64,000 bases of DNA from Moorella glycerini (GTDB taxonomy: Bacteria; Bacillota; DSM-521; Neomoorellales; Neomoorellaceae), in the NCBI RefSeq assembly GCF_009735625.1, contig NZ_CP046244.1:372001-436000 (forward strand), given 5' to 3'. Under the pieces are notes generated by a model. That model was not told the origin of the DNA, searched no databases, and saw only the letters and a list, made by a program, of their open reading frames with translations. Positions 42,243 through 60,707 of this stretch are shown piece by piece; the first letter of the stretch is position 1, and each line of letters starts with the position of its first letter. The position numbers were made by a program, and so were the translations under genes.

Positions 42243-42319
42243 AGTCAACCTCCTGCCTCCGGATAACAAATTTCCAGATGCAGTATACCCCTGAAGCCGG
42301 TTCCCTACTCCCAACATTG

Positions 42320-43462: not shown

Positions 43463-43556
43463 CTTACCCCACCCTTTTACCTTGATTTTTATATTAAGCT
43501 GCACCAGAAATCCTCCAGCTCTTCCTTTTTTATATCCCACCTCGGGTTATAGAATT

Positions 43557-44336
43557 CTAGCCCTGCGAGGAAATACCCTCCAGCAGGCCGGGGATTTGCC
43601 GTCGATCTATTTTACCACTGATAAACGTGCGGCCGGAAGAAAAGTTGTGAAGCCTTATTTCACCGAAGCCGCCTAACCCTTCGGTTAGAGCAGCTAACCT
43701 TTCGTCTTCTCCCTTGAGCCAGAAACTAGTCACTGCCCCGTGACAGGCCAAATGTTTTGCCTGGTGCTTAAAAGGAGCTATGGGGCAACTACCCCAACCC
43801 CATAGAAAATCCTCCGGTGCCACTCCTTTTTGCAGCAACAGGTCAATATTGCTGGAAAGATAAAATGCCGCCTTGAAGATATTATGCACCAAGCTTCCCT
43901 GGCGGGCCACGATAATGCAGTAAAGCCTTTCCCGTTCATCCAGAATATTAAATTTAGCCCACCAGCCCTCGTCCTTGGGCAAATTAGCGGCACTTAAAAA
44001 TGCTATAGGTAACGTTATATCTACCCTCTTGCCTGTATATATTTGGGAGCCTCCCCCCAGGTATGTTTCCCGCAAGGTAGCAGGCAGGTTGTCCCAGAAT
44101 ATGTCTAGCGTTGCCAGGCGCCAGTTTTCTACCCTTAAGTCCCCGAATTCAACTACGCCCCTGCCTTCCAGGAAAAAATCCAGGGCTGCTTTAGCAGCGG
44201 CCCAGCCACCCTGGGCTTGTACACCCATATCGATGAGTAGCGGCCGTCCCGGTATCTCGATGAAGCTAATATCAAGGCTTTCCTGTCTGTCCTTTAATGC
44301 CGGCAAATTCTGCAAGCAATAGTCAACTGTTTTCAC
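43557..44336 (-). CDS. Divergent Mch-like protein, probably catalytically altered
   Basis: 259 residues, homologous along its length to the 318-residue gene just upstream: PLLIDMGVQAQGGWAAAKA matches TVIDMGINYPGSWNAARYF, and the C-terminal RTFISGKIDRRQI matches RSYATGSINNKVL. It therefore belongs to the methenyl-tetrahydromethanopterin cyclohydrolase (Mch, PF02289) superfamily but is about 60 residues shorter. The Arg and Glu taken as catalytic in the longer protein (R184, E187) align here with F158 and S161. It may be a non-catalytic partner in a mixed oligomer, or an enzyme with changed chemistry. The start has the usual spacing, 11 bases after the longer copy. Ordinary automated annotation would probably leave it hypothetical. 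Confidence 0.65.
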   Translation of the reverse strand: MKTVDYCLQNLPALKDRQESLDISFIEIPGRPLLIDMGVQAQGGWAAAKAALDFFLEGRGVVEFGDLRVENWRLATLDIFWDNLPATLRETYLGGGSQIYTGKRVDITLPIAFLSAANLPKDEGWWAKFNILDERERLYCIIVARQGSLVHNIFKAAFYLSSNIDLLLQKGVAPEDFLWGWGSCPIAPFKHQAKHLACHGAVTSFWLKGEDERLAALTEGLGGFGEIRLHNFSSGRTFISGKIDRRQIPGLLEGISSQG

Positions 44337-44347
44337 TTTTCAACTCC

Positions 44348-45304
44348 TTACCCCCAAAAATCATTTAATAAAACCTTGTTATTAATGGAACCGGTAGCAT
44401 AACTGCGCCCGCTCCGGACGTTAAAAAAGGTTACTTTAGCAGGAGCATCCCAGTCCCGGGGTACCTTGGCCCACGAACCACCGCACCTGGCAAAAAGTTC
44501 TTTGAATGGGACCCCGTAAACGTCGCTATTTTTATTGAAAGGCAGGTCAGCCAGGACCTTTTCTATTTCCCCATCTTCACAATCCACCCATAGGATTGTT
44601 TCTTGGCCGTAGATCAGGCAGTCATTTACGCGGCCATAAGCCTCCATCTCATCCGACACTATAGCCACAACTGGAGCAATACCGAACGCCTGGATTATGT
44701 TATTCATTTTAAACCCGCGGTCATAAAGGGAAGGTAAAGTCTGCTCTACATTGCGAGCTGCCACCTGAACGGCTCCTACTATGGTTCCAGTGCCAGCTGC
44801 TAATATATAAAGTTTTGCTGCCGGTACTCCTGCTTCACGAGCAATCAGGTCGGCAAGGTCGGGACCAGGTAATTCCGTCGTCTGGATCATGGCTACCCCG
44901 TATTCGCCATGGGGTTCCCGGTAAGATACCGCCTGGGCAAATACATCCGGAGCCTTGATGGCCCGGATAGGACCGGAAATGACAATACTCTGATCTTTAT
45001 ATTTCAACTTCCAGTAGGCTACATGGGAGCTCATCTCAGTTATCACCGGCCTGGTCACATAAACGCCAATGGTCGGCACCAGGTAACCTGCTATTTCCAT
45101 TTTACCGTACTTGACTTCCCCCCGGCCGCCCAGGCCGATCTGGACGAAATAACGGGCTGCATTCCAACTACCGGGATAATTAATCCCCATATCGATTACG
45201 GTGGCACCATTGTCCAAAACCTGCACGCCAATACGTAGTTCTTCCGACCGTGGTAATACATTTTCCTTTATAATTCTGACTGCTTCCTGGTTATAGCTAA
45301 ACAC
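44348..45304 (-). CDS. Methenyl-tetrahydromethanopterin cyclohydrolase (Mch) homologue
   Basis: 318 residues from a GTG preceded by GGAGGGG. It matches the archaeal/methylotroph Mch pattern in order: LDNGATVIDMGINYPGSWNAA (28-50), ISGPIRAIKAPDVFAQ, LYILAAGTGTIVGAVQVAARNVEQ (166-188), AFGIAPVVAIVSD, NDCLIYGQETILWVD and the C-terminal APAKVTFFNVRSGRSYATGSIN. The length equals Mch (about 316). R184 and E187 sit where I recall the catalytic Arg183/Glu186 of the Archaeoglobus enzyme. Mch hydrolyses the C1 methenyl bridge of a methanopterin C1 carrier; acetogens use folate, so this role is unexpected. It is flanked by a divergent Mch copy and a deaminase gene. True substrate unknown. Confidence 0.78.
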   Translation of the reverse strand: MFSYNQEAVRIIKENVLPRSEELRIGVQVLDNGATVIDMGINYPGSWNAARYFVQIGLGGRGEVKYGKMEIAGYLVPTIGVYVTRPVITEMSSHVAYWKLKYKDQSIVISGPIRAIKAPDVFAQAVSYREPHGEYGVAMIQTTELPGPDLADLIAREAGVPAAKLYILAAGTGTIVGAVQVAARNVEQTLPSLYDRGFKMNNIIQAFGIAPVVAIVSDEMEAYGRVNDCLIYGQETILWVDCEDGEIEKVLADLPFNKNSDVYGVPFKELFARCGGSWAKVPRDWDAPAKVTFFNVRSGRSYATGSINNKVLLNDFWG

Positions 45305-45375: not shown

Positions 45376-46737
45376 CTATATATTTAATTTATCCCTGAGG
45401 CGGCGGGCAATATCTTGGACTTTATTGACTACTTCTTCTTCATTGATAGTAAGCAGGTGGCGGCAATGCATCACAATCTTCCCGTTAATTATTACCGTCT
45501 CGATATTTTCCTGATCGCAAGAGTAGACCAGAGTCGCCAGGGGATCGTGGACCGGAGTAGTTGTTGGTAACCCTGGGTTAACTATAAATAAATCAGCCCG
45601 GTAACCAGGTGCCAGGGTGCCAATTTGTTTCTCCATTCCAACCGCCCGGGCACCTTCACAGGTGGCCATAGCAATAATGCGGGAGGCATTAATAATACCT
45701 GGATTGCGGTAGACACCTTTATGCACCAAAGCCGTGAGCTTTAATAATTCAATCATATTCTGGCTGTTATTACTGGCAGCGCCGTCAGTAGCCAAAGAGA
45801 CAGCGGTCGCCGGGGAGGCCCGGGTTATGGGGGCAACACCTGACCCTAGATAGAGATTAGCCGCCATACAATGGGACCAAGATACCCGGTATGCATCCAT
45901 TAATTGTAAATCACTCTCTTCAGCTTGAACCCCATGCACTAAAAGAAAATGGTTAGCCAGCATACCCATCTCGGCCAGGATTTCCAGAGGCCGTTTCCCG
46001 TAATCAGCCTGGCAAAGATCAATGTCATAATCTGTTTCCATTAAGTGCATGGTAATGGGAACCTTGTTTTCCGTGGCATAAGCTGCAAGGGAACGTAGAC
46101 CGCTATAACTCATCCCCCACATCACTGAAGGCGCCAGCCAAATATGAATCATTCCATCGCTTTTTAATTCATACTGCCGGCGTAGATAGTCCACTTCCGT
46201 CAGAACGGTATCCACATCTTCAATCAGTTGGGGCGGGACACCCCGGTTAACACCGGTATCATGCACGCCCCGACCAAAGAGCAGGCGGATGCCGGTCGTT
46301 TGGGCGGCCGTAATAACTGCTTCCGAAAATTCCGGGTGGCAGGTCAGATACATAAAATCCAGCAAGGTCGTCGTACCGCTGCGGATGGCTTCCAATATAC
46401 CCAGTTGGGCGGCATAATAGCAATCTTCCTCACTAAGCAAAGGTACAACAGGGGTTATCAGGCGGGCAATCCAGGTTTGTAAAGGGGTATCGGCGGCCAG
46501 ACCCTTGAGTAAGGTTTGAAATAGATGGGTATGGCTATTAATCAAACCAGGAAAAATATAATGACCCTTGGCATTAATTAGCTTTCTCCCCTTATAGGCA
46601 GCTGTTATTTCAGCCGAGGTTCCCATAGCCACAATCTTACTGCCCTCAATAGCCAGGGCACCATTAAAAATTATAGTCCGGGCGGCATCCATAGTTACTA
46701 TGGTGCCACCAACAACAATAAGGTCTACTTCTTTCAA
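45376..46737 (-). CDS. Amidohydrolase-family deaminase (Atz/Trz; purine/pterin deaminase-like)
   Basis: 453 residues from a TTG directly after the ATPase stop, with GGAGG eight bases upstream. A mononuclear-metal amidohydrolase with H69-T-H71 in INSHTHLFQ, H231 and E234 in MHLMETDYD, H268 in LLVHGVQ and D318 in LATDGAASNNSQNM. This set is shared by enzymes that deaminate guanine, 8-oxoguanine, S-adenosylhomocysteine, triazines, pterin and isoxanthopterin. Next to a nucleoside-type importer and pterin-type proteins, a purine or pterin aminoheterocycle is the likely substrate; sequence alone does not choose. Confidence 0.87.
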   Translation of the reverse strand: MKEVDLIVVGGTIVTMDAARTIIFNGALAIEGSKIVAMGTSAEITAAYKGRKLINAKGHYIFPGLINSHTHLFQTLLKGLAADTPLQTWIARLITPVVPLLSEEDCYYAAQLGILEAIRSGTTTLLDFMYLTCHPEFSEAVITAAQTTGIRLLFGRGVHDTGVNRGVPPQLIEDVDTVLTEVDYLRRQYELKSDGMIHIWLAPSVMWGMSYSGLRSLAAYATENKVPITMHLMETDYDIDLCQADYGKRPLEILAEMGMLANHFLLVHGVQAEESDLQLMDAYRVSWSHCMAANLYLGSGVAPITRASPATAVSLATDGAASNNSQNMIELLKLTALVHKGVYRNPGIINASRIIAMATCEGARAVGMEKQIGTLAPGYRADLFIVNPGLPTTTPVHDPLATLVYSCDQENIETVIINGKIVMHCRHLLTINEEEVVNKVQDIARRLRDKLNI

Positions 46738-48258
46738 TTAAACTGCCTCCTCGGCTTTTTGCTTTCTGCCCGCCATCAATAGGCCAATGTTGGTGATATC
46801 AGCATTAGTGGTATCAACAATGTCCATTAATACTCCCTCATAAATAATCCCGATACGGTCGCTTAGATTTAATATCTCATCAAGTTCAGTAGAAACCAAT
46901 AACACCGCACAACCCTTGTCTCTTTCTGCAATGAGGTTGCGATGAATATACTCCGTTGCCCCAACATCCAATCCCCGTGTGGGATGAACGGCAATCAGGA
47001 GTTTAGGCTGGCGGTAAAGTACCCGCGCCAGGATTACCTTTTGTTGATTGCCGCCAGAAAGGTTAACAGCCGGCACCTCGCTATTAGGGGTCCGGATATC
47101 ATAAGCCTTGATTAATCTGTTTGCCAGTTCCTGCATTGGTTTGGCTTGTAAAAAATGATGCCGAGTAAAAGGTGGCTGGTAAAAATATTCGAGAATTAGG
47201 TTTTCTTTAAGGTTCATATCCAGCACTAAACCTTGTCGCTGGCGATCTTCAGGTATATGGGCCAGGCCCAGGTCGAGAAGTTTTCGCGGCGGCAGGTTTG
47301 TTGCTTCCTGGCCGCAAACCTTAATTCGACCCTTGCTAACGGGGAGCAAGCCTGTAATAGCTTTGATTAATTCGGACTGACCATTGCCGTCGACACCGGC
47401 CAAACCGAAAATTTCACCGGCACGTACTGTAAAAGATATCCCCCGCACAGCCGGTAAATTTTGTTCCTTTTGCACATGCAAATCTTCTACTTCTAACACT
47501 GGCATACCGGGGCGAGAGGATTGTTTATCTAAATGAAGATTTACTTCCCGCCCAACCATCAGGCGAGCCAGTTCTTCAGGAGAGGTAACCTCAGTAAAAA
47601 CCGTCTTAACAAGACGACCCCGGCGCAATACGGAAACCCTGCGGCTAATAGCCATTACTTCATTCAGCTTGTGGCTAATAAAAATGACGGTAACGCCTTC
47701 AGCAGTAAGCCGTTTTAAGATTATAAACAGCTCTTGAGTTTCCTGAGGAGTAAGGACAGCCGTCGGTTCATCGAGAATTAAAATCCTGGCACCCCGGTAT
47801 AGGGCTTTCAGAATTTCTACCCGTTGCTGTTGGCCGACAGATAATGTGGCTACTCGAGCCTCAGGATTAACCTTTAAGCCATATTGATCACCCGCAACCC
47901 TGATTTTTCGGGCAGCTTCTCTCAGGTTGAGATGGATACCACCGGCCATGCCCAGAATGATATTTTCAGCAACTGTTAGAGCCGGAATGAGCATAAAGTG
48001 CTGGTGCACCATGCCAATACCCAGTCTGATGGCTTGCCGGGGGGAATCAATTATAACTTCCCGGCCCTCTAAAAAAATATGGCCGGCATCGGCGCCATAG
48101 AGGCCATAAAGAATATTCATTAAGGTACTTTTACCGGCGCCGTTTTCTCCCAATAAAGCATGAACTTCTCCCGGATAAACATCCAGGTCAATATGGTCAT
48201 TAGCCAGGACTCCCGGGAACTCCTTAACTATGCCGCGCAGGCTTAGAATAGGTTTCAT
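46738..48258 (-). CDS. ABC transporter, double ATP-binding protein (nucleoside/simple sugar type)
   Basis: 506 residues with two ATPase domains. The first has Walker A GENGAGKSTLMN, LSVGQQQRVEILKAL and ILILDEPTAVLTP. The second has GVDGNGQSELIKAI (non-canonical Walker A, usual in RbsA/NupO/MglA), NLSGGNQQKVILARVL and LLIAVHPTRGLDVGATEYI. It matches NupO/YufO-type ATPases that work with BMP-family binding proteins. It overlaps the upstream permease gene by four bases. Confidence 0.93.
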   Translation of the reverse strand: MKPILSLRGIVKEFPGVLANDHIDLDVYPGEVHALLGENGAGKSTLMNILYGLYGADAGHIFLEGREVIIDSPRQAIRLGIGMVHQHFMLIPALTVAENIILGMAGGIHLNLREAARKIRVAGDQYGLKVNPEARVATLSVGQQQRVEILKALYRGARILILDEPTAVLTPQETQELFIILKRLTAEGVTVIFISHKLNEVMAISRRVSVLRRGRLVKTVFTEVTSPEELARLMVGREVNLHLDKQSSRPGMPVLEVEDLHVQKEQNLPAVRGISFTVRAGEIFGLAGVDGNGQSELIKAITGLLPVSKGRIKVCGQEATNLPPRKLLDLGLAHIPEDRQRQGLVLDMNLKENLILEYFYQPPFTRHHFLQAKPMQELANRLIKAYDIRTPNSEVPAVNLSGGNQQKVILARVLYRQPKLLIAVHPTRGLDVGATEYIHRNLIAERDKGCAVLLVSTELDEILNLSDRIGIIYEGVLMDIVDTTNADITNIGLLMAGRKQKAEEAV

Positions 48259-49244
48259 AAATTCGCCCCCGATTGCTTTACCTTTACTGTCCGGCGATGA
48301 TGGCCGCGGGCTTTATCCTTGATATAAGGAAGACCGCTGGCGGCCGGACCTTTAGCAGGCCCCATGAAGAATATAAGGACTATCAAAGTAAGGGCATAAG
48401 GTAACATCAAAAAGAATTGATAGGGCAGTTGGAAATTAAAGGCCTGTAAGCGTAATTGCAACGCTTCACCTGCCCCAAATAAGAGGGTTGCCATAGCGGT
48501 GCCAGCGGCTGTCCATTTACCGAACACTATAGCGGCAAAGGCGATAAAACCACGCCCAGCAGTAATATTATCGTAAAAGGTGTTAATGCCGCTCAAGGTA
48601 ATGGCTGCTCCTCCCAGGCCGGACAAGAAGCCGCTGAGGACGACTGCCAGGTAACGTACTTTGACCACATCAATGCCAGCTACATCCAGGGCCTTGGGAT
48701 GTTCACCGGCAGCCCGGATAGACAGGCCCCAGGAAGTATGATAAAGGATATAGTTAACCAAAAGTACCAGGACAACGGCCAGATAAACCAGGGGTACCTG
48801 TTCAAAAAATATATGGCCAATAAAAGGGATTTTACTTAAAGCACCAAAATTTACGGGTACCATCCCCGGGCTTTCCAGTTGTTTGAGGTCCATACCAAAA
48901 ATCAGGCGAAAAAAGGTGCTAGTTATTCCCAGGGCAAGCATATTAAGGCCAACTGCCGTCACAATCTGGTCTACCTTGACGGTAATACTCAAATAAGCAT
49001 GCAACAGGGCCAGTAGCCCACCACATAGAGCTGCGACCACGAGGCCGATAAGGACACTATGGGAATAAAAGGCACCAAGGTAGCCAAAAAAAGCGCCCAT
49101 GAGCATCATACCTTCTAATCCCAGGTTTAAAACTCCGGCCCGTTCGCTAAAAAGCCCGCCCATAGCTGCCAGCAAGAGGGGGGTGGTTAACCGGATGGCA
49201 GCATTGTAGAAGTCTGCATCGGTAAATATATCAAGTAAAACCAT
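48255..49244 (-). CDS. ABC transporter permease 2 (NupQ/YufQ type)
   Basis: 329 residues, eight to ten hydrophobic segments. It has RLTTPLLLAAMGGLFSERAGVLNLGLEGMMLMGAF near the N-terminus, the standard signature of this permease type, and the ATPase-contact loop SWGLSIRAAGEHPKALDVAGIDV. The ATG overlaps the stop of permease 1 (TAATG). It forms the channel with permease 1. Confidence 0.92.
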   Translation of the reverse strand: MVLLDIFTDADFYNAAIRLTTPLLLAAMGGLFSERAGVLNLGLEGMMLMGAFFGYLGAFYSHSVLIGLVVAALCGGLLALLHAYLSITVKVDQIVTAVGLNMLALGITSTFFRLIFGMDLKQLESPGMVPVNFGALSKIPFIGHIFFEQVPLVYLAVVLVLLVNYILYHTSWGLSIRAAGEHPKALDVAGIDVVKVRYLAVVLSGFLSGLGGAAITLSGINTFYDNITAGRGFIAFAAIVFGKWTAAGTAMATLLFGAGEALQLRLQAFNFQLPYQFFLMLPYALTLIVLIFFMGPAKGPAASGLPYIKDKARGHHRRTVKVKQSGANL

Positions 49245-50314
49245 TAAAAGTCCACCTCACGCGGCTGACTGAACCTGATGAAATTAAGCTTTAGTCTAGT
49301 AAAACCCAGGACACAGAGGATAATAATGGCCTGGATAACATAGACGATGGTAACCGGAATACCCGTGAGAATCTGCATAGTATTAGCGCCATTCCGTAAA
49401 GCACCGAAAAAAATGGCTGCCATTACTGTACCTAGAGGATTAAGTTTACCAAGAAGCGCTACAGCGATGGCATCATAGCCGGTATTGGGTGAAAAGTCTT
49501 GCAGTAAAATATACTGGTAGCCCAGAATTTGGACTGCCCCGGCTAAACCGGCCAGGGAGCCGCTGACTATCATAGCGCCAATTAAAGTGCGGTCGGCGTT
49601 CATGCCGGCCGTCCGTGCGGCTTCAGGATTAGAGCCCACCGCCCGTAACTGGTAACCCCAATCAGTTTTGTAGATTATAACAAATAGTATCCCTGCCGCT
49701 AGTAAGCCCAGGAAAAGCCCTGCATTAAGTTCGGTTCCCGGCAAAAGTTTGGGCAACCGGGCAGTAGCAGCTACCGGCGGTGATTGGGGGGCATAGGTAG
49801 CCGGGTCTTTTAAAAAGCTGTTAACGGCATAATTAACAAAGTGGACACCAATGTAGTTTAAAAGGATTGTGGTAATAACTTCATTGAACCCCCGGCGCAC
49901 TTTTAAATATCCCGGGATTAAAGCCCACAGGGCGCCGGCGGCACAACTTGCCGCCAGCGCCAGGGGGAGGTGAATAATGAATGGTAAATCATGGTAACGG
50001 GCACCAAAATAAGTTGCAGCCATAGCTCCAAGATAAAGTTGTCCTTCAGCACCAATGTTGAAGATCCCGGAGCGAAAAGCCAGGGCAATGCCCAGACCAG
50101 CCAGCATTAAAGGTATGGCCAGGACCAAACTGGCCCCGAAGTTACCCAGGCCACTAAAAGCGCCTTCAAACATGGCTGCATATGCTTGTAAAGGGTTACT
50201 TCCCTGCCAGAACAAAATAAAGGAACTTATAAACAGAGCCACGGTTATGGCTAGCAGGGCTATGAAAAGGTAATTGAGGGTATCCAGGATTTTAACCCCA
50301 AAACGGCTACCCGT
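49244..50314 (-). CDS. ABC transporter permease 1 (NupP/YufP type), probable ACG start
   Basis: The ATPase-contact loop DWGYQLRAVGSNPEAARTAGMN and FRSGIFNIGAEGQLYLGAMAA identify the family. The first standard start codon in frame is GTG at 50242, but that cuts the first membrane helix in half and has no ribosome site. Upstream the frame continues through NYLFIALLAITVALFIS to a TGA just before CTT-ACC-ACG; no ATG, GTG or TTG occurs in frame. The ACG at 50314 lies nine bases after AAGGAG and gives MGSRFGVKILDTLNYLF as N-terminus, about 356 residues. So either an ACG start is used or an ATG was mutated. An N-terminally short form from 50242 is the alternative. Confidence 0.75.
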   Translation of the reverse strand, partial: TGSRFGVKILDTLNYLFIALLAITVALFISSFILFWQGSNPLQAYAAMFEGAFSGLGNFGASLVLAIPLMLAGLGIALAFRSGIFNIGAEGQLYLGAMAATYFGARYHDLPFIIHLPLALAASCAAGALWALIPGYLKVRRGFNEVITTILLNYIGVHFVNYAVNSFLKDPATYAPQSPPVAATARLPKLLPGTELNAGLFLGLLAAGILFVIIYKTDWGYQLRAVGSNPEAARTAGMNADRTLIGAMIVSGSLAGLAGAVQILGYQYILLQDFSPNTGYDAIAVALLGKLNPLGTVMAAIFFGALRNGANTMQILTGIPVTIVYVIQAIIILCVLGFTRLKLNFIRFSQPREVDF

Positions 50315-50327
50315 GGTAAGTCACTCC

Positions 50328-51368
50328 TTAATACAAGGTTTTAATGGAAAATTTGCCATCCAGATAATCTTTAACAGCACTTTGAACTTTATCAACTACA
50401 TCTTGCGGTACGTTTTTAAAGGGTGCCAGTGACTGGGCGCCATCCTTCATTCCATAAACATAATGCTGTGGTTCCAGTTTTCCCTTTTTAGCCGTTTCAG
50501 CTATTTTGAGATAAAGGGCCTCCACCGACTGCAGTCCGCTGGTAACGATTGTATCCGGCGCCATGAAATTCTGATCCGTCACCCAGCCAATAGCCTTGGC
50601 ATTAGCATCCTTACAGGCCTGGAAAACACCAATACTAAAGGAATTACCCATAACCAGCAAAACATCATTACCCTGGGATAGTAAGGCCTTGGCTGCTTCC
50701 TTGGCTTTCGGGATATCTTCCCAGCTGCCAACATAGGATACCGCTACACTAGCTTTGGGGTTTACCTTGGCAACACCTTCTTTAAAGGTATCAATATCAG
50801 CGGTAACAGTTGGAGCGGCCATAGGAGCAACGACGCCAACTTTGTTGCTCTTGGTGATTAAACCTGCTGTCATGCCTGTGAAGTAACCTAGTTCGCCAAA
50901 TTTAAAACTGGTTGAAGCTAAATTGGGACCGGTAACGCTGCCATTGATCACCACGAACTGGGTATTAGGGAATTCTGGCGCCACCGATTTCATGGCTTCA
51001 TCAAAATCAAAGCTGTGTCCAAAAATAAGGTTATAACCCTGGCGGGCGTAAGTACGGATTACTTGGGTATAATTGGCTGGAGCGACTTTTTCTGTATAGG
51101 CAATTTTAGCCCCCAGCTTGGCCTGAATCTCATTTAAACCCTGTAAAGCTGAAGCATTCCACCCGCCATCATTAACCGCCCCGGGAGCAATCAGGGCCAC
51201 CTTAAATTCACCTTTAGTGTCACTATTAGTGTTACTGTTGCTGGTTGTAGACGTATTGCCTTGTTTACCAGTTTCATTAGCTGGCTTACTACCACACCCG
51301 GCTACCAGGGCCAGCACCAGCAAAGCGATGACTACAAACACCAAACATTTCCGCAAGCCTTTACTCAT
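50328..51368 (-). CDS. BMP-family substrate-binding lipoprotein (nucleoside/purine-like ligand)
   Basis: 346 residues from the ATG at 51368, placed by GGAGGAAG. The lipoprotein signal is KCLVFVVIALLVLALVAGC; a Ser/Thr/Asn-rich linker follows (residues about 30-50). The BMP/PnrA pattern is clear: VALIAPGAVNDGGWNASALQGL, YNLIFGHSFDFDEAM, NTQFVVINGSVTGPN, ELGYFTGMTAGLITKSNKVGVV and AIGWVTDQNFMAPDTIVTS. Members bind purine nucleosides; related ones bind other heterocycles. It is encoded between folB-like and permease genes. Confidence 0.92.
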   Translation of the reverse strand: MSKGLRKCLVFVVIALLVLALVAGCGSKPANETGKQGNTSTTSNSNTNSDTKGEFKVALIAPGAVNDGGWNASALQGLNEIQAKLGAKIAYTEKVAPANYTQVIRTYARQGYNLIFGHSFDFDEAMKSVAPEFPNTQFVVINGSVTGPNLASTSFKFGELGYFTGMTAGLITKSNKVGVVAPMAAPTVTADIDTFKEGVAKVNPKASVAVSYVGSWEDIPKAKEAAKALLSQGNDVLLVMGNSFSIGVFQACKDANAKAIGWVTDQNFMAPDTIVTSGLQSVEALYLKIAETAKKGKLEPQHYVYGMKDGAQSLAPFKNVPQDVVDKVQSAVKDYLDGKFSIKTLY

Positions 51369-51388: not shown

Positions 51389-51763
51389 TTAATTTTTTTG
51401 CGGCTCCCGGACTATGGAGCAACCGCTATATTCCACAATACCGCCGATGGCCACAGAGGGTTTTTTTACTGTCACCCGGACTTGCTTTATAGGGTAGGCA
51501 GCTATTATTTCATCGGCGATACGCTGGGCAATCCTTTGCACTGTCCTATATTGTTCTTTAGTTGCCACCCGCTCAGCAATGGCGTAAACATCCATATAGC
51601 TTAAAGAGCCCGTCAGGTCGTCGGTAGTACAGGTATGGCTCATATCAATAGAAACTTCAACATCGACAACAAAACGCTGGCCTAACGTGTTTTCCTCAGG
51701 AAAATAACCGTGTTTGGCCCAAAACTGCATCCCTTTAACCAATAATAGATCTTCCTTTTCCAA
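51389..51763 (-). CDS. FolB-like T-fold aldolase with altered pterin anchor
   Basis: 124 residues from a TTG nine bases after GGGAGG; an ATG farther upstream would overlap the previous gene. It follows dihydroneopterin aldolase (FolB) closely: LLLVKGMQFWAKHGYFPEEN, DVEVSIDMSHTC, SLSYMDVYAIAERV and the VRVTVKKPSVAIGG segment with the KP lysine. The position of the pterin-anchoring Glu (E in VERVAEEVA of E. coli FolB) is Gln76 here (VQRIAQRIA). In the T-fold superfamily Glu binds 2-amino pterins or purines, and Gln binds 2-oxo rings, as in urate oxidase. So it may act on a deaminated pterin or related ring. It lies in an operon with a deaminase and a nucleoside-type importer. Confidence 0.82.
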   Translation of the reverse strand: MEKEDLLLVKGMQFWAKHGYFPEENTLGQRFVVDVEVSIDMSHTCTTDDLTGSLSYMDVYAIAERVATKEQYRTVQRIAQRIADEIIAAYPIKQVRVTVKKPSVAIGGIVEYSGCSIVREPQKN

Positions 51764-51770
51764 AGCAACT

Positions 51771-52424
51771 TTACCTCCCGGTAACATTCGGCGCAAGGGT
51801 TGGCGGCTCTAATCCTTGCTTAATCATCAGCGCGGCTTCAGCTACCCGACGGGCGATAGTTTGGGCATTGGTAAGCCCAAGCAAGTCTTCCTGGGCCCCT
51901 TCTGCCCTCCGGTCCTGACTCCAGATGGCAGCACCATGGTAAATACCGAGGCCACCGCTGGCTACCAGGATGCCGTGGGTATAATAAAAGCCCAGTAAAA
52001 CATTCAAGGTCGTTTCCTGACCGCCGTTACGGGTACCGCCGACGGTAATGGCCCCACCTACCTTTCGGGAAAAATAGAAAGGATCTTTTTTTAACAGGGT
52101 ATAAGTTGGGCGAAAACGGTTTAAGAAAGTAACCATTTGACCGGTCGCCCCCATGTTGTAAACCGGTGAAGCCAGGAGATAGGCGTCAGCATCATAAAAT
52201 ACCTGGTAAAGAGGACGCATATCGTCATTATGTGCGGGACAGTAATTCAAGCCGTTTTTTACACAGCGATCGCAATGCAAACAAAAATTTATTTTTTTGT
52301 TGCGTAAAGTAATGAGTTCGGTAGTAACTCCTTCAATTGAGGCGGCAGCCTTTAAAGCTTCTGTAAGCACATACTCGGTGGCCGCTTTACGCGGACTGCC
52401 GCAAATACCTAAAAGTTTAATCAA
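51771..52424 (-). CDS. Iron-sulfur flavoprotein / NADPH-dependent FMN reductase family
   Basis: 217 residues, flavodoxin-like fold with FMN loop ICGSPRKAATEYVLTEAL and the ISF-type cluster motif CLHCDRCVKNGLNYC (Cys48-x2-x2-Cys type). SPVYNMGATGQMVTFLNR lies over the flavin, and GGTRNGGQETTLNVLLGFYYTHG is conserved in these proteins. It is the first gene of the ten-gene series, so it may supply electrons to it. The paralogue at 60708 closes the sugar-alcohol region. Confidence 0.88.
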   Translation of the reverse strand: MIKLLGICGSPRKAATEYVLTEALKAAASIEGVTTELITLRNKKINFCLHCDRCVKNGLNYCPAHNDDMRPLYQVFYDADAYLLASPVYNMGATGQMVTFLNRFRPTYTLLKKDPFYFSRKVGGAITVGGTRNGGQETTLNVLLGFYYTHGILVASGGLGIYHGAAIWSQDRRAEGAQEDLLGLTNAQTIARRVAEAALMIKQGLEPPTLAPNVTGR

Positions 52425-52749: not shown

Positions 52750-52799
52750 AGAATGAAGGTTAAATGAAATTGATATACAGGCAAAGGAATGACCCTTGG

Positions 52800-53810
52800 A
52801 TGGATATAAAAACTATCGCAGCCAAGGCCGGGGTTTCTATAGCTACAGTTTCACGGGCTTTAAATAAGCCCGAAATGGTGCGGCCGCAAACCCGGGCCCG
52901 GATTATGCAAATTGTCGACGAAATGCAATATAGCCCTAACCCTCTAGCCAAAAGCCTTTTAACAGGTCGTACCTATACTGTAGCCCTTGTGTTTCCCACC
53001 TTACGCAATCCCTATTTTAGCCAATTGGCCGAAGGATGTGAGGCAGAATTATCGAATGCCGGTTATACTACCAGTATCTTTTCCTTTGAGGAAGAAATCT
53101 CTAAGCAACGAACAATATTTAATAATATCATCCGGCGTCACGTAGATGGCATTATCTTAGCCGGTTCCGGTTCCCTGCAAGCAGGATACCAGCAGATTTT
53201 GGAGGGTTTAAATATCCCCATTGTTGTCGTCGAAGATATGCCTGACCTGGATACCATTCCTGTCCGGGCGGGTATTAGTTGCATCAACATAGATGACCGT
53301 CAGGGAACCCAGATGGCCATAAAATATTTCCTGCAAAAAGGCCACCGGGAAATAGGTATTATTGCCGGCGAAGGGCAAATGCTTTTAACAAGGCGGCGCT
53401 TAGAGGCAGCCCGATCAGTTTTAAAAGAAGCCGGGTTAACGTTAAACCATATTGTCAATGGCAGTTATATATCGGTAGAAAGTGGCTACCGGGGAATGCT
53501 TCGCTTACTGGATAGCGATGCCCGGATGACAGCTGTTTTTGCTTTTAATGACCTGCTGGCTATTGGAGCGCTTAATGCCGTCCTTGATAGGGGTTTGCAG
53601 GTTCCCGGAGATGTAGCTATTATCGGCTTTGACGATATCCCCCTGGCAGCTTACACGCGCCCACGTTTAAGTACCGTTCACTCTCCCAGCAATGAGATTG
53701 GTGCCTATGCAGCCAGAATGCTCCTGGAACATATCGCCGAAGAAAAAGCAGCTAGTACCAGGCGGCGGGTATTTATACCAGCCAAGCTGGTTATCCGGGA
53801 GACTTGCTAG
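52800..53810 (+). CDS. LacI family transcriptional regulator (paralogue 1)
   Basis: 336 residues from the ATG at 52800 (MDIKTIAAKAGVSIATVSRALNKPEMV), the standard LacI N-terminus; an ATG 12 codons earlier is less likely. Helix-turn-helix and hinge occupy residues 1-60 (AKSLLTGRTYTVALVFP), then a periplasmic-binding-like ligand domain with SYISVESGYRGMLRLLD, FAFNDLLAIGALNAV and IIGFDDIPLAAYTRPRLSTVHSP. It is about as similar to the regulator at 56235 as close paralogues are. Likely binds the AATGTAAA..TTTACATT sites. Ligand probably a sugar or sugar alcohol. Confidence 0.92.
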   Translation: MDIKTIAAKAGVSIATVSRALNKPEMVRPQTRARIMQIVDEMQYSPNPLAKSLLTGRTYTVALVFPTLRNPYFSQLAEGCEAELSNAGYTTSIFSFEEEISKQRTIFNNIIRRHVDGIILAGSGSLQAGYQQILEGLNIPIVVVEDMPDLDTIPVRAGISCINIDDRQGTQMAIKYFLQKGHREIGIIAGEGQMLLTRRRLEAARSVLKEAGLTLNHIVNGSYISVESGYRGMLRLLDSDARMTAVFAFNDLLAIGALNAVLDRGLQVPGDVAIIGFDDIPLAAYTRPRLSTVHSPSNEIGAYAARMLLEHIAEEKAASTRRRVFIPAKLVIRETC

Positions 53811-53947: not shown

Positions 53948-54988
53948 TTAATTGGAATCAGGCCAGTAAAGCAAGATGCGATGGATGTTTTTATCCTTAG
54001 CCCTCTCTATGGCAGTTTCAATTTGGGTAAAAGGCATACGTAAGATGTTAAAACTGGATAATCTAACCACCCCTCGAGATATTAATTCTGTGGCCGTGAC
54101 AAAGCTTTGATGATCATGCATTAGACTCCCGGTTAGGGTAATTTCCCTATAATGAAAATCGTTGATATCCAGGGTTAACGCTGCTTCAGGATGTATCGGA
54201 GCATATACTACCAAATGGCCATCTTTGGCCAGGGCTTTTAGACCATCAACAATTGCCTGCTGGCCACCGGCAGTATAAAAAACTACGTTGGCACCATAAC
54301 CACCGGTATGTCCCCGGACAAAATCTACGAAATTTTCCTGGCGAGGGTCAAAGGCATAATCGGCCCCCAGGTCGATAGCTTTTTGCCGGCGGGTTGCACT
54401 GGGTTGACTGATGATTACCCTGGCTCCATAATACTTCGCTACCAGGGTAAAAAGCAGGCCCATTAACCCTGCGCCAATTACCACAGCGGTGTCACCCGCC
54501 CTTAAATCGGCTCGCCTGATGGCCCTGATAACGCAGGCTAAAGGTTCAGCCAGGATACCTGTATCCAGATTAGTAATATTAGCCAGGGGGTGAACCATAT
54601 AACGTTTAACATACATATATTCAGCAAATCCTCCCGGTCCCCAAGGCTGATCGTTTACAGGTTTGCTCTTAACTTGAAGACACTGGTTATTTAAGCCGCG
54701 TTGGCAATAATAACATTCCCCGCAGCGGGTCAAACTGGCTACAGCTACTGGTTGTCCTACCGCTATGGCTGGCATTACCTTGGAACCTACAGCTGCTACC
54801 TTCCCAGCTATTTCGTGGCCGCCAATAAAAGGAAACTCAGCCGGCTCTAGACCTTCATAAACACTTCGTTCCCACGTACAAAGACCGCAAGCCTCAACCT
54901 TTACCAGCACCTCATCATCTGCTATGGGCCGCATAGGTATTTCGCGCATGGCTAATTTCCCGGGTGCATTAAAGATGATACTTCGCAC
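53948..54988 (-). CDS. Zinc alcohol/polyol dehydrogenase (CTWE subfamily)
   Basis: 346 residues from the GTG at 54988, five bases after GGAGGTGG; it shares one base with the stop of the gene before. Medium-chain dehydrogenase: catalytic zinc Cys in VEACGLCTWERSVYEG and HE in GGHEIAG, structural zinc Cys in RCGECYYCQRGLNNQC, NAD loop AVVIGAGLMGLLFTLVA. CTWE replaces the usual CGSD after the catalytic Cys and is shared with the gene at 58161. It probably oxidises a sugar alcohol. It lies 3' to the second dehydrogenase gene in the same direction. Confidence 0.9.
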   Translation of the reverse strand: MRSIIFNAPGKLAMREIPMRPIADDEVLVKVEACGLCTWERSVYEGLEPAEFPFIGGHEIAGKVAAVGSKVMPAIAVGQPVAVASLTRCGECYYCQRGLNNQCLQVKSKPVNDQPWGPGGFAEYMYVKRYMVHPLANITNLDTGILAEPLACVIRAIRRADLRAGDTAVVIGAGLMGLLFTLVAKYYGARVIISQPSATRRQKAIDLGADYAFDPRQENFVDFVRGHTGGYGANVVFYTAGGQQAIVDGLKALAKDGHLVVYAPIHPEAALTLDINDFHYREITLTGSLMHDHQSFVTATELISRGVVRLSSFNILRMPFTQIETAIERAKDKNIHRILLYWPDSN

Positions 54989-56031
54989 TATGTCCACCTC
55001 CTCTCTCCCGGCATTAACAATACCTTTAAACCCTGACGTTTGGCCATTAATCTGAAGCCCTCTTCCCACTTCACCAGGGGCAGACAGGTGGTAATTAATT
55101 CCTGGTATCTTACCTTCCCCGCCACCATCAAGGCCAAGGCTTTTTCCCAGTCGGGCCAGTTATGGCAGAAAGTCCCTTTTATCGTCAACTCTTTATAAGT
55201 AATTTTTTCATAATCCAGTTCTACTGGCTTTCCAAAGAGGCCGACTTGAATATATGTCCCCTGACGGCGAATAACCTCAAGTCCCAGGACCGCTCCACCC
55301 CCGGCACCCGAGCATTCCAGCACAACATCCGCTCCGTAGCCCCCCGTTAAATCAAGGAGGACCTCTTTTATATACTCTTCCCCCGTATGAAAAGTGTGGT
55401 CGGCTCCAAGGGTAGAAGCCACCTGGAGACGTTCTCCATCTCCCGGTGCGCCAACGACTATAATCCTTGCCCCTTCGGCCTTGGCTACCTGGGCTACTAA
55501 CTGCCCCATGGGTCCGGGCCCAATAATCAGAACAACATCGCCCCATTTGATATTTGCCTTAGCCACAGCATGAACAGCAGCTGCTAAGGGTTCACTTAAG
55601 GCGGCCGCTTCCAGGGGAAGTTTATCTGGAATACGATGAAGCATATCAGCAGCTACAATAACATATTCAGCAAAACCACCATTAGTATCAAAGCCCAGGG
55701 AGCGCCTGACGGCACACTCCTGGTACTCACCCTGGCGGCAATAGCGACAATGGCCGCAGGTGGAAAAAGTATGTTCGGTTGTTACTCGCTCACCCACCTT
55801 CCATTCATTGACTCCCGGTCCGATAGCATCAATAATACCGCTTATTTCATGGCCAGGTACTAGTGGATAATTATTTAATTCAATAGCGCCCGAATAAATA
55901 TGTATGTCAGAGCCGCAAATCCCAGTATATGCTACCTTAAGCCTTACTTGTCCCGGCCCAGGCTCTGGTTCCGGCAGTTGCCTGAGCTCCATGTTCCCAG
56001 GACCAGGGGCATACTTCACCAGCGCTAGCAT
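54988..56031 (-). CDS. Zinc-dependent alcohol dehydrogenase (sorbitol/threonine dehydrogenase type)
   Basis: 347 residues. Catalytic zinc: YTGICGSDIHIYSG and GHEISG; structural zinc Cys in STCGHCRYCRQGEYQEC; proton relay EPLAAAVHAV; NAD loop VLIIGPGPMGQLVAQVA. It belongs to a different subgroup from its neighbours (CGSD). Its ATG at 56031 is 41 bases downstream of operator 2. The pair may oxidise two successive polyol or sugar intermediates. Confidence 0.92.
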   Translation of the reverse strand: MLALVKYAPGPGNMELRQLPEPEPGPGQVRLKVAYTGICGSDIHIYSGAIELNNYPLVPGHEISGIIDAIGPGVNEWKVGERVTTEHTFSTCGHCRYCRQGEYQECAVRRSLGFDTNGGFAEYVIVAADMLHRIPDKLPLEAAALSEPLAAAVHAVAKANIKWGDVVLIIGPGPMGQLVAQVAKAEGARIIVVGAPGDGERLQVASTLGADHTFHTGEEYIKEVLLDLTGGYGADVVLECSGAGGGAVLGLEVIRRQGTYIQVGLFGKPVELDYEKITYKELTIKGTFCHNWPDWEKALALMVAGKVRYQELITTCLPLVKWEEGFRLMAKRQGLKVLLMPGERRWT

Positions 56032-56071
56032 TAATGAATCACCTGCCCTTCGTAATAAAAGAGCGACTCGA

Positions 56072-56089
56072 AATGTAAAGGGTTACATT
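56072..56089. promoter_or_regulatory. LacI-type operator 2
   Basis: AATGTAAAGGGTTACATT, same arms as operator 1, 41 bases upstream of the dehydrogenase start on the minus strand. Confidence 0.8.
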
Positions 56090-56156
56090 CTTTATTTGGT
56101 TATTCGCTATTTTTATTAAATATCCTCCTGGACTCGAAAAAATTTTTAAAGGAAAC

Positions 56157-56186
56157 TTGCTAGTATAACTCCATATAGATTATGAT
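56157..56186 (+). promoter_or_regulatory. Promoter of second lacI-type gene
   Basis: TTGCTA (56157-56162), 18 bases, TATGAT (56181-56186). Confidence 0.6.
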
Positions 56187-56199
56187 ATATGAGAGAATA

Positions 56200-56217
56200 A
56201 ATGCAAGCGTTTGTATT
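56200..56217. promoter_or_regulatory. LacI-type operator 3 (variant) or cre site
   Basis: AATGCAAGCGTTTGTATT: same length and arms as operators 1, 2 and 4 with changes, and a central CG. It overlaps the +1 region of the second lacI gene, so autoregulation is likely; it also resembles a catabolite-response element. Confidence 0.65.
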
Positions 56218-56234
56218 ATACCGGGGTGAAGAGC

Positions 56235-57236
56235 TTGAACATAGATATTAAATCTATTGCAGCTAAAGCCGGGGTGTCAGTAGCTACCGTTTCCCGGGCC
56301 CTCAACCGGCCCGAAATGGTCCGGCCCGCTACCAGGGAAAAAATCCTGGCTTTAGTTGAAGACCTGGGTTATAAACCCAATCCCCTTGCCAGGGGATTGG
56401 CGACAGGTAAAACTAACCAAATTGCCCTGGTAGTACCAACCTTAAATAATTCTTTTTTTGGTCAGCTGGCTGAAGGGAGTCAAAATTTTTTAATCAGCCA
56501 GGGATACAGTCTGGTTATCTTTAGCTCACAAGGCTATGCCGAAAAGGAATTAACAATTATCAAGAACTTAGACCAACGTCAGGTTGACGGGTTAATCCTG
56601 TCGGGGTCAGGTTTTTTCCCCAGCGACTACCAGCCGATCCTTGAACAAATTAAAGTTCCGGCCGTCTTGGTGGAGCATCTCCCTGATGATCCCCATTTAA
56701 GTTCTGTTTACATCGATGATAGAGCAGGTACTACGATGGCTATTCAATTTTTAATCAGCCGCGGGCACCGGCAAATAGGTGTTATTGCCGGGAATCCCCG
56801 GATGGTGACTACTTGCCGGCGCCTGCAAACCGTAAAATACGTTTTAAAAGAAGCTGGTATTCCTCTTACCAAGAAACAGGTTGCCTACGGAGATTATGCC
56901 TTGCTGGAATCAGGAGCCAATGCCCTGCTCACGTTAATTACTAAGAACTCCAACCCTCCCACTGCCATCTTTGCTTTTAATGATATCCTGGCCATCGGCG
57001 CCCTTAAGGCAGCTCAACAGCTGGGAATAAAAATACCTGCCGACCTGGCCATTATTGGTTTTGATGATATACCCTCAGCCGCCTTTTGTACCCCTTCATT
57101 AAGCACCATTCATTCCCCCAGCCTGGAACTGGGCCGGCAGGCCGCCAGGCTTCTCCTGGAACAATTAAACCAGGAAAACGCCCCGGTGAAAAAAGTCCTT
57201 TTACCGGTTGAACTGGTATTAAGGGAATCCTGCTAG
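56235..57236 (+). CDS. LacI family transcriptional regulator (paralogue 2)
   Basis: 333 residues from the TTG at 56235, six bases after GGGGTG (MNIDIKSIAAKAGVSVATVSRAL). Same domain plan as the regulator at 52800; the recognition helix region VSxATVSRALNxPEMVRP is nearly identical, which predicts the same or overlapping operators. FAFNDILAIGALKAA and AIIGFDDIPSAAFCTPSLSTIHSPS follow. It stands divergent from the two dehydrogenases and upstream of the aldolase. Confidence 0.92.
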   Translation: MNIDIKSIAAKAGVSVATVSRALNRPEMVRPATREKILALVEDLGYKPNPLARGLATGKTNQIALVVPTLNNSFFGQLAEGSQNFLISQGYSLVIFSSQGYAEKELTIIKNLDQRQVDGLILSGSGFFPSDYQPILEQIKVPAVLVEHLPDDPHLSSVYIDDRAGTTMAIQFLISRGHRQIGVIAGNPRMVTTCRRLQTVKYVLKEAGIPLTKKQVAYGDYALLESGANALLTLITKNSNPPTAIFAFNDILAIGALKAAQQLGIKIPADLAIIGFDDIPSAAFCTPSLSTIHSPSLELGRQAARLLLEQLNQENAPVKKVLLPVELVLRESC

Positions 57237-57313
57237 TGTTCCTTCACTAGAACCCATATACGATATTTATAATATCCACCGGCAGGATTTCATCCAGTTG
57301 CGTAGAAATATAT

Positions 57314-57331
57314 AATGTAAACGCTTACATT
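57314..57331. promoter_or_regulatory. LacI-type operator 4, overlapping aldolase promoter
   Basis: AATGTAAACGCTTACATT; its first bases overlap the TATAAT at 57311-57316, so bound repressor would block transcription of the aldolase unit. The -35 is weak. Confidence 0.85.
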
Positions 57332-57350
57332 ATTTTTAGGGGGTTGGATT

Positions 57351-58133
57351 ATGGGTAAGTATAAGCGCTTACAACACATCTTGCGTCCTGATGGGCGTAC
57401 TGTTATTGTCGCTATGGATCATGGGGGGACTTCTGGTCCCATACCAGGTATTATCGATCCTGGGGCTACCCTGGCTAAGGTCATTGCTGGCGGTGCTGAC
57501 GCCATTTTGACCACCGTGGGGGTGGCAAAAAACTTCGAAACCGCCCTTGGTCCTACTGGTCTTATAATACGGTTAGATTTTCCGGCCACCGATCTGGTAA
57601 CTGGAGTTTACGATTGCGAACTTTTTGTTGAAGTGGAGGAAGCTGTCCGCCTTGGTGCTGATGCAGTCATCCTGTCAGCAGGTCCCGGTAAAGATGTTGA
57701 ACGTAAAACCTTGCATAATCTGGCCCGGGTGGCCCGGGAATGCGAACGCTACGGTATGCCGCTAATTGCTGAAATGTACCCCGGAGGTTTCAATGGGCCA
57801 CCCGAGTTGATGACCATTGATAATTTAAAGCTAGCAGCGCGAATTGCTGCTGAGTGGGGTGCCGATATGGTCAAAATACCCTATCGCCCCGGTTTTGAAG
57901 CTGTAACCGCAGGCTGCTATATCCCCATCGTAGTTTTAGGCGGAGTTAAGACAAATAATCTGGAGGTTTTCTTCACTAACATTGCCGAAGCTCTCCAGGC
58001 TGGCGCTAAAGGCGTGGCCATTGGCCGCAATATCTGGGGCCATCCTGAACCCAGCAGGATTGTCAAGGTTTTAAATGCCCTGGTACATGAGAATACCGAT
58101 GTAGTTACAGCAATGACTTTTTTGCATAAATAA
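57351..58133 (+). CDS. DhnA-type class I aldolase
   Basis: 260 residues of the DeoC/FbaB aldolase superfamily. It has TVIVAMDHGGTSGP (phosphate/substrate loop), GADAILTTVG, ADAVILSAGPG, ERYGMPLIAEMYPGG, ADMVKIPYRPGFEAV (Schiff-base Lys in VKI) and VVLGGVKTNNLEVFF. AKGVAIGRNIWGHPEPSRIVKVL is the C-terminal phosphate site. AGGGGG precedes the ATG. Family members cleave fructose 1-/1,6-phosphates, deoxysugar phosphates or autoinducer-2 phosphate. With the dehydrogenase and kinase that follow, it probably cleaves a phosphorylated ketose. Confidence 0.88.
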   Translation: MGKYKRLQHILRPDGRTVIVAMDHGGTSGPIPGIIDPGATLAKVIAGGADAILTTVGVAKNFETALGPTGLIIRLDFPATDLVTGVYDCELFVEVEEAVRLGADAVILSAGPGKDVERKTLHNLARVARECERYGMPLIAEMYPGGFNGPPELMTIDNLKLAARIAAEWGADMVKIPYRPGFEAVTAGCYIPIVVLGGVKTNNLEVFFTNIAEALQAGAKGVAIGRNIWGHPEPSRIVKVLNALVHENTDVVTAMTFLHK

Positions 58134-58160
58134 TCTAACTCCCGGGAGGAAAGTATTAGC

Positions 58161-59204
58161 ATGGCATTAACTTATAAAGCTGCCGTGATGACGGCTGCAA
58201 AAACTATTGAATTTTGGGATGTACCCTTACCGGAACCAGGTCAAGATGAAGTTTTAATTCGCGTCCAGGCCGTCGGTATCTGTACCTGGGAGCAACGAAT
58301 TTACCAAAATGGCAAACCTGACTCCTATCCCTTCTGGGGAGGGCACGAAATTGCTGGCCTCGTCGACAAACTAGGTCCAAGCTTACGTAACAATCTTCAA
58401 GTAGGCGATCATGTCGCCATTGCCAGGCTTACCCGTTGCGGTGAATGTTATTTTTGCCGGCGGGGTTTGGATAATTTGTGCCTTTACGCCGAGACTCCCC
58501 TGCCCGGCCAACCTAAAGGTCCGCGCGGTTTTAGCGAATATTTGCTGGTGCGGAGCTATGAATGCTATAAAATACCAACGGACCTCGACTTTACCCAAGC
58601 CTCCCTTGCTGAGCCGGTTGCCTGCTGTGTCCGCAGTTTACGACAGTTGGATGTTGCCTTTGGCGATACAGTTGTAATCCAGGGTGCCGGTATTATGGGA
58701 ATAATCCACACAAAATTATGCAAACTGCGGGGGGCCACTGTCATTATATCTGAACCAGATGTTTCCAGGCGCGAAGCCGCTTTAAAGGCTGGTGCTGATT
58801 ATGCCCTTAACCCCCTGGAAGAAAACCCGGCACAATTTATCCGCCAGCATATCAATTCCCACGGAGCCGAAATAGTCATTTTTACAGCCGGAGGACAGGC
58901 TGCCTTCCAACAAGCAGTGCAAACGGTAGCTCCCGGTGGACGGATTATGCTTTACGGTTCCATGCACCCTTCCGGTGTTGTAACCATTGATGCCAATGAC
59001 CTTCATTACCGCGAATACCGTCTCCTTGGCAGTTCACGCCATGATAAGGAAAGTTTCCGGGAAGCAGTGGCCCTATTGGCCTCTGGAACTATCAAGGTTG
59101 ATGAGCTGGTGAGCAAAGTTTTACCTTTTTCTGAGGTCCAGGCCGGTTTTCAATTAGCTCTTGCCGGAGGGCTGTACCGGGTTGTACTCCGTATGGACAA
59201 CTAG
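58161..59204 (+). CDS. Zinc alcohol/polyol dehydrogenase (CTWE subfamily)
   Basis: 347 residues, paralogous to the gene at 53948: VGICTWEQRIYQNG and GGHEIAG (catalytic zinc), RCGECYFCRRGLDNLC (structural zinc), VVIQGAGIMGIIHTKLC (NAD), and IDANDLHYREYRLLGSSRHDKESF aligned with IDINDFHYREITLTGSLMHDHQSF. It starts 27 bases after the aldolase with GGGAGG upstream. In the aldolase-dehydrogenase-kinase unit it would oxidise a polyol to the ketose that the kinase phosphorylates (inference). Confidence 0.91.
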   Translation: MALTYKAAVMTAAKTIEFWDVPLPEPGQDEVLIRVQAVGICTWEQRIYQNGKPDSYPFWGGHEIAGLVDKLGPSLRNNLQVGDHVAIARLTRCGECYFCRRGLDNLCLYAETPLPGQPKGPRGFSEYLLVRSYECYKIPTDLDFTQASLAEPVACCVRSLRQLDVAFGDTVVIQGAGIMGIIHTKLCKLRGATVIISEPDVSRREAALKAGADYALNPLEENPAQFIRQHINSHGAEIVIFTAGGQAAFQQAVQTVAPGGRIMLYGSMHPSGVVTIDANDLHYREYRLLGSSRHDKESFREAVALLASGTIKVDELVSKVLPFSEVQAGFQLALAGGLYRVVLRMDN

Positions 59205-59218
59205 GGAGGTATGTACCC

Positions 59219-60691: not shown

Positions 60692-60707
60692 ACACGGGGG
60701 AATCAAA

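Follow-up and report, generated by a model that had tools for sequence, protein, structure and literature searches.

FolB-Q, a small T-fold protein encoded in the window (the whole stretch of 64,000 nucleotides of Moorella glycerini DNA that was analysed), carries a glutamine where dihydroneopterin aldolase (DHNA, FolB) has the glutamate that anchors the pterin ring. Comparison of genomes indicates that FolB-Q is very probably not a folate-synthesis enzyme. Its gene lies in an operon with a member of the methenyl-H4MPT cyclohydrolase (MCH) family in which a second glutamate has given way to glutamine, and the cluster suggests that a pterin with a modified, probably deaminated, ring is handled by a pathway of which little is known. 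The gene is as follows.

51389 to 51763, minus strand, FolB-Q, a T-fold protein of the FolB/DHNA family, 124 aa, with a TTG start

The TTG at 51763 is preceded by a Shine-Dalgarno-like GGGAGG; a plus-strand reading of 51389-51763 was rejected, being closed by stops. A scan for promoters and terminators gave sites no more numerous than in shuffled sequence. FolB-Q scores 108.7 bits with the Pfam FolB profile (cut-off 31.8) and 98.8 with the equivalog model TIGR00525, folB (cut-off 72.15), so that automatic annotation would name it dihydroneopterin aldolase.

The alignment to FolB is unambiguous. The preliminary description, made from the letters of the window, had read a Glu-to-Gln change at the pterin anchor, with an acidic residue near position 24, Tyr56, and the Lys of a KP pair retained. 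Residue-level alignment to solved DHNAs bears out both readings: V-Q76-R-I-A-Q of FolB-Q is aligned with V-E-S-I-A-E of B. anthracis DHNA, and the catalytic triad is kept as E24, Y56, and K101, equivalent to Glu22, Tyr54, and Lys100 of S. aureus. Gln76 occupies the position of the anchor Glu74, which in MtFolB makes a hydrogen bond to the ligand ring (PMC11328599). The anchor alignments that used E. coli and S. aureus reference sequences agree with the alignment to PDB sequences. A structural comparison with FolB had been put forward as a check. An AlphaFold2 model of FolB-Q, built on a 57-sequence alignment (pLDDT 93.1), superposes on the DHNA structures of B. anthracis, S. aureus, M. tuberculosis, and E. 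coli with Z of 17.7-20 and rmsd of 1.1-1.4 Å. Remoter matches are urate oxidase (Z 12-14) and GTP cyclohydrolase I (Z 11).

Codon 76 is CAA (51538-51536), one base from GAA; thus, one protein alone would mean little, and the meaning of Gln76 rests on conservation. Among 125 aligned FolB-type rows from the genomes sampled here, 107 have Glu at the anchor and 18 have Gln, with no third residue. A database search over 398 genomes of the phylum gave 52 matches at E<=1e-24, and the anchor was read in every one of them. A supported clade in the tree (96/95) holds 12 Gln rows and 1 Glu row. That is, 12 of the 13 rows of the FolB-Q clade keep Gln, with pairwise identity falling as low as about 40%. 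Comparison of these sequences indicates that the anchor change is not chance and is clade-wide. Trp15, Tyr/His20, Met41, Cys45, and Ser55 are further near-fixed traits of the Gln clade. Two of them, at positions 20 and 55, correspond to the ligand-contact residues Val18 and Asp53 of MtFolB, so the clade has Tyr/His20 where the usual DHNA has Val and Ser55 where it has Asn/Asp.

The remaining Gln rows lie outside the clade on a long branch. They come from a family of two-domain FolB-like proteins, about 240 aa long, whose first anchor is Gln (L108:8951-9670, L149:5722-6450, L150:8599-9318, and L151:8349-9071). This family has no Tyr at the Tyr56 position. A different two-domain arrangement is found at L109:6997-7725 in genome G076, where two FolB-Q domains are fused in tandem and Phe replaces Tyr56 in the second.

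Ten genomes were searched for FolE, FolK, and every FolB. FolE and FolK are both present in five of them, namely the window genome (G000), G237, G112, G047, and G213; each of these five has a Glu-anchored FolB near one or both and a separate Gln-anchored FolB elsewhere. The neighbourhood of the Glu form is FolE-FolB in G000 and G237 and FolE-FolP-FolB in G112; FolK adjoins FolB in G047, and both FolE and FolK adjoin it in G213. The window genome therefore encodes, next to folE, a canonical FolB in addition to FolB-Q. Neither FolE nor FolK was found in G133, G076, G188, and G286, and the FolB proteins of these four are all Gln-anchored. The tenth genome, G379, has FolE and FolK, and the only FolB detected in it belongs to the Gln clade and has a Glu anchor. 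This protein is 62% identical to FolB-Q of the window and has Trp15, Tyr20, Met41, Cys45, and Ser55; G379 is a draft, 84% complete, and a second FolB may lie in the missing part. Since the Glu form of G379 is nested inside the Gln clade, reversion is the shorter history, the fork beside it in the tree having weak support. The anchor residue and the folate role agree in 10 of the 10 genomes, and nothing else links Gln to a substrate outside folate synthesis as strongly as this agreement, which comes from gene content and sequence. A non-folate role of FolB-Q is well supported.

A Gln-anchored FolB of the clade is found in 9 of the 398 genomes of the phylum, and all 9 are among the 25 that have an MCH-family gene (Fisher p=3e-12 by genome and 2.6e-8 by genus, uncorrected for kinship). 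Within the window's genus, the operon is present in only 2 of 11 listed genomes and is therefore accessory. A search of the class gave no further members, because the class comprises only 22 genomes.

The genes around FolB-Q are as follows.

52764 to 53810, plus strand, LacI-type regulator, divergent from the operon
51771 to 52424, minus strand, flavoprotein of the FMN_red family with a CX2CX2CX7C cluster (a motif of the iron-sulfur-flavoprotein type), 7 bp upstream of FolB-Q
50328 to 51368, minus strand, BMP/PnrA-like substrate-binding lipoprotein, conserved, start taken at the ATG at 51368
49244 to 50242, minus strand, ABC permease 1 (BPD_transp_2), conserved
48255 to 49244, minus strand, ABC permease 2 (BPD_transp_2), conserved
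46738 to 48258, minus strand, ABC ATPase of the sugar/nucleoside type with two ABC domains, conserved
45376 to 46737, minus strand, amidohydrolase, a cog0402-type deaminase, below every NCBIfam cut-off
44348 to 45304, minus strand, MCH1, of the methenyl-H4MPT cyclohydrolase family, with the active-site Arg/Glu kept and Gln141 for the canonical Glu140
43557 to 44336, minus strand, MCH2, a divergent, shortened MCH-like protein of 259 aa (30.6 bits)
42320 to 43540, minus strand, iron-containing alcohol dehydrogenase (Fe-ADH), nearest to lactaldehyde reductase
53948 to 61310, no strand assigned, polyol/sugar-type gene set neighbouring the operon

On the minus strand, the order is flavoprotein, FolB-Q, BMP lipoprotein, two permeases, ATPase, amidohydrolase, MCH1, MCH2, and Fe-ADH, with intergenic gaps of -4 to 85 bp; FolB-Q follows the flavoprotein by 7 bp and lies 20 bp ahead of the lipoprotein. 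Directly downstream of the Fe-ADH, also on the minus strand (39762-42317), is a fused sugar nucleotidyltransferase/phosphomannomutase-like protein.

The operon core with MCH1, MCH2, and the flavoprotein recurs in G237, of the same genus, and in G112 and G047, of other families. FolB-Q adjoins the importer and the flavoprotein, with MCH not close by, in G076, G188, and an Oscillibacter genome (L004). The flavoprotein is next to FolB-Q at L069, L070, and L071 and nearby at L108, L109, L111, and L004. A homologue of MCH2 follows MCH1 at L069, L070, L071, and L076, and MCH2 is possibly a second subunit. The Fe-ADH, also present at L071, is a candidate for handling a released aldehyde; an aldehyde ferredoxin oxidoreductase (AOR)-like gene, recognised from its N-terminal sequence, is in the L071 (G047) and L109 (G076) clusters. 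The LacI-type regulator has the same place at L070, with a related one at L069 and L071. The 53948-61310 set comprises three Zn-ADHs, a LacI regulator, a DeoC-type aldolase, a XylB-like kinase, and a flavoprotein. It recurs beside the tandem FolB-Q of G076 (L109), where the ADH, kinase, and aldolase genes of the window have homologues, and around the two-domain Gln-anchored FolB of G286 (L149), which sits among homologous ADH and kinase genes. The set is probably linked to the pathway.

The amidohydrolase is nearest to the NCBIfam models for 5'-deoxyadenosine deaminase, TRZ/ATZ, and 8-oxoguanine deaminase. The preliminary description had taken it as a pointer to the substrate, as a deaminase able to turn a 2-amino ring into a 2-oxo ring. 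Taken alone, it does not identify the substrate: the window genome has 12 paralogous cog0402-type deaminases, and none lies beside the Gln-anchored FolB in the G112 and G076 clusters, so that the deaminase was rejected as the decisive key. As many as 21 matches are found in related genomes, and so many deaminases of this type suggest specialists in N-heterocycles.

The second switch is in MCH. MCH1 scores 232.2 with TIGR03120 (cut-off 228.8). Twelve canonical-type MCH sequences (M. kandleri and 11 bacterial, several of them encoded in an Ftr/Fmd-like setting, as at L072 and L073) were aligned with 23 from the clusters described here. A single column is fixed against fixed, namely Glu140 in 12 of 12 canonical proteins and Gln in 23 of 23 cluster proteins, the residue being Gln141 in MCH1 of the window. 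The Gln-type proteins (MCH-Q) form one clade, split from the canonical ones at a 100/100 branch. Arg183 and Glu186, the catalytic pair of the A. fulgidus enzyme, are invariant in 35 of 35, and Gln93 is His in the five core-operon proteins. If Glu140 of MCH holds the 2-amino/N3 edge of the pterin, two unrelated folds would appear, from their sequences, to have been changed alike in one operon. A role for MCH1 in H4MPT one-carbon metabolism was rejected, as no FTR match is found in the window genome. An anchor switch was also considered, and rejected, for a third pterin-binding family, the methyltransferase-like PF00809 proteins of related clusters. These keep the Asp anchor, as read against a reference sequence, so the switch is not universal.

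MCH genes are found in other settings as well. At L072 (G237:C1:2031000-2050900), there is an apparent formylmethanofuran/Ftr/Mch one-carbon set with a canonical Glu140 MCH. Five loci (L075, L076, L107, L115, and L142) share a conserved order of GntR, SDR, MCH-Q, pyruvate/acetoin-dehydrogenase-like E1 alpha/beta, and E2, in some cases followed by a further MCH-Q; L075 also has a BMP importer, a deaminase, a lipoate-ligase-like gene, and a flavoprotein. One may speculate that, in MCH-Q clusters without FolB-Q, the SDR and E1/E2 set is an alternative means of removing a three-carbon side chain. At L146 (G133:C1:2058500-2078400), MCH-Q adjoins a methyltransferase-like pterin-binding protein, among a glycine-oxidase-like FAD enzyme, amidohydrolases, a deaminase, an ECF transporter, and an M20 amidohydrolase, which looks like folate or pterin breakdown.

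The chemistry of the anchor suggests what the switch may do. A glutamate can accept two hydrogen bonds, from the pterin N3-H and 2-NH2; a glutamine can accept one and donate one, which suits N3-H together with a 2-oxo group. In urate oxidase, the invariant pair Arg176 and Gln228 holds urate, xanthine, and diaminouracil (PMC2490695). Gln76 of FolB-Q probably reads a 2-oxo ring. That FolB-Q is a lumazine-type (2-oxo dihydropteridine) aldolase in pterin catabolism has a little under an even chance in our estimate.

We propose that FolB-Q is a FolB-derived, cofactor-free T-fold enzyme, drawn out of folate synthesis, in which Gln76, taking the place of the Glu partner of the 2-amino group and N3-H in pterins, would make a pocket suited to a 2-oxo ring. 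The likeliest substrate would be a deaminated dihydropterin of the lumazine type with a hydroxylated side chain. First, the BMP-type ABC system would import a pterin, whose 2-amino ring would then be deaminated. The iron-sulfur-flavoprotein-like protein would next reduce the ring compound, and Glu24, Tyr56, and Lys101 would carry out a retro-aldol cleavage in which the outer side chain leaves as an aldehyde. The aldehyde would pass to the Fe-ADH, or to AOR in relatives, and MCH-Q may act hydrolytically on the remaining reduced pteridine. The substrate, the order of steps, and all the activities of this route are what we infer; retro-aldol cleavage of the side chain is the simplest reaction because the aldolase triad is kept and aldehyde-handling enzymes lie alongside.

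The preliminary description had the anchor and the neighbouring deaminase pointing to one modified substrate. The half of the claim that concerns the anchor has been strengthened by the clade-wide Gln, the non-folate role, and the MCH switch, and these three make a modified ring the best reading; the half that concerns the deaminase is weak. Against the lumazine reading, the deaminase is not unique to the operon, XDH-type neighbours at L004 and L108 fit purines too, and the PF00809 pterin-binding proteins of related clusters keep Asp. DHNAs also bind guanines (1sql, 5far, and 3v9o), and a preference for pteridines thus cannot come from the pocket by itself. The whole scheme is offered tentatively, at rather less than even odds: an anaerobic pathway of pterin uptake, deamination, and dismantling of the 2-oxo product, with the FolB and MCH folds re-specified by Glu-to-Gln changes at their ring anchors, a change reversed where FolB-Q was recruited to folate synthesis.

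The main rival, which we consider unlikely, has FolB-Q and MCH-Q acting in anaerobic purine breakdown on 2-oxopurines of the xanthine/urate type or on their ring-opened products; opening of the five-membered ring would fall to MCH-Q, and the pyrimidinedione would be held by FolB-Q in the way known from urate oxidase. Beside FolB-Q at L004 there are indeed genes for XDH subunits and for PreA-like, dihydropyrimidinase/allantoinase-like, YgeY, and SsnA-like proteins, and XDH subunits are also encoded near it at L108. The importer is of the BMP/PnrA type, for which nucleosides are often the cargo, T-folds bind guanine and xanthine, and the deaminase paralogues are numerous. In contrast, purine chemistry would have no need of the full retro-aldol triad that FolB-Q retains, aldehyde-handling enzymes adjoin the gene, and MCH and FolB are both pterin families. 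Furthermore, the open reading frames inspected beside the core operon of the window, G237, G112, and G047 include none recognised as XDH-type.

It is quite unlikely that FolB-Q still acts on a normal 2-amino pterin, being, for instance, an epimerase or a pterin-salvage aldolase, with Gln tuning only affinity or pH dependence. The DHNA-like fold, the triad, and the equivalog score would all fit such an enzyme, and Glu to Gln is a conservative, single-base change. Yet the Gln has stayed fixed across a clade that has diverged to about 40% identity, while 107 of 107 other FolB rows examined have Glu; the lone clade member that seemingly serves folate, in G379, has Glu as well, and a second pterin enzyme, MCH, shows the parallel switch.

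There is a slim chance that a 2-oxo-tetrahydropterin is a one-carbon carrier, with FolB-Q making its hydroxymethyl precursor and MCH-Q a true methenyl cyclohydrolase. This would agree with the conservation of Arg183 and Glu186 in all 35 MCH proteins, MCH-Q included, with the true-looking formylmethanofuran/Ftr/Mch set in the congener G237 (L072), and with the company of MCH-Q and methyltransferase-like pterin-binding proteins at L146. Against it, the window genome is without Ftr, and the importer, the deaminase, and the ADHs, with no biosynthetic neighbours, point to uptake and catabolism. Neutral drift of a functionally meaningless Gln76 in a redundant paralogue, for which the canonical second FolB beside folE would leave room, is very improbable and disfavoured by conservation, given the strict Glu/Gln dichotomy without other residues and the conserved operon and triad.

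If the 2-oxo reading of Gln76 is true, the choice of a T-fold enzyme between 2-amino and 2-oxo rings can be predicted from a single residue. This rule is directly testable with the Glu and Gln forms that occur in nature, namely the proteins of the window, G237, and G379. There would also be a route for anaerobic pterin breakdown, which is little covered in the open-access literature searched. Automatic names such as dihydroneopterin aldolase and methenyl-H4MPT cyclohydrolase hide a conserved uptake-and-conversion pathway of anaerobes, with genes also in an Oscillibacter genome. A search of open-access literature, with most subscription journals outside its reach, found no report on a Gln-anchored FolB, the MCH Glu140Gln clade, or this operon. 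Pterin deaminases, aerobic folate breakdown (PMC9513972), and the T-fold Gln of urate oxidase for 2-oxo rings are already known.

Among known systems, DHNA FolB (EC 4.1.2.25; 5F3M, 1DHN, 2O90, and 1NBU) shares with FolB-Q the fold, the E24/Y56/K101 triad, and the length; FolB-Q differs in the Gln anchor, in Tyr/His20 and Ser55, in having no link to folate genes, and in its catabolic-type operon. FolX, the dihydroneopterin triphosphate epimerase (1B9L and 4AEY), is likewise a FolB-type paralogue off the main folate route and has the same fold (Z about 15), but its identity to FolB-Q is only 13-16%. Urate oxidase (EC 1.7.3.3) has the T-fold and a glutamine, Gln228, that holds a 2-oxo ring. In a comparison of whole folds, the FolB-Q model superposes on uricase T-folds; Gln76 is at the FolB anchor. 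Urate oxidase is a fused two-domain, oxygen-dependent protein of about 300 aa with an Arg partner, whereas FolB-Q, encoded in gene clusters of anaerobe type, is one FolB domain of 124 aa that has an aldolase triad; membership in the urate oxidase family was rejected on size and domain count. In the soil bacterium Variovorax F1, aerobic folate and pterin breakdown uses carboxypeptidase G and a pterin deaminase (PMC9513972). The early deaminase step, from a 2-amino to a 2-oxo pteridine, would be common to that route and the one proposed here; FolB-like, MCH-like, and flavoprotein steps are not described for it, nor is an anaerobic operon (PMC9513972). Finally, MCH1 shares with Mch (1QLM, 4FIO, and 4GVQ) the family and Arg183/Glu186 and differs in the Glu140-to-Gln change, found in 23 of 23 cluster proteins, and in residing in a genome without Ftr.
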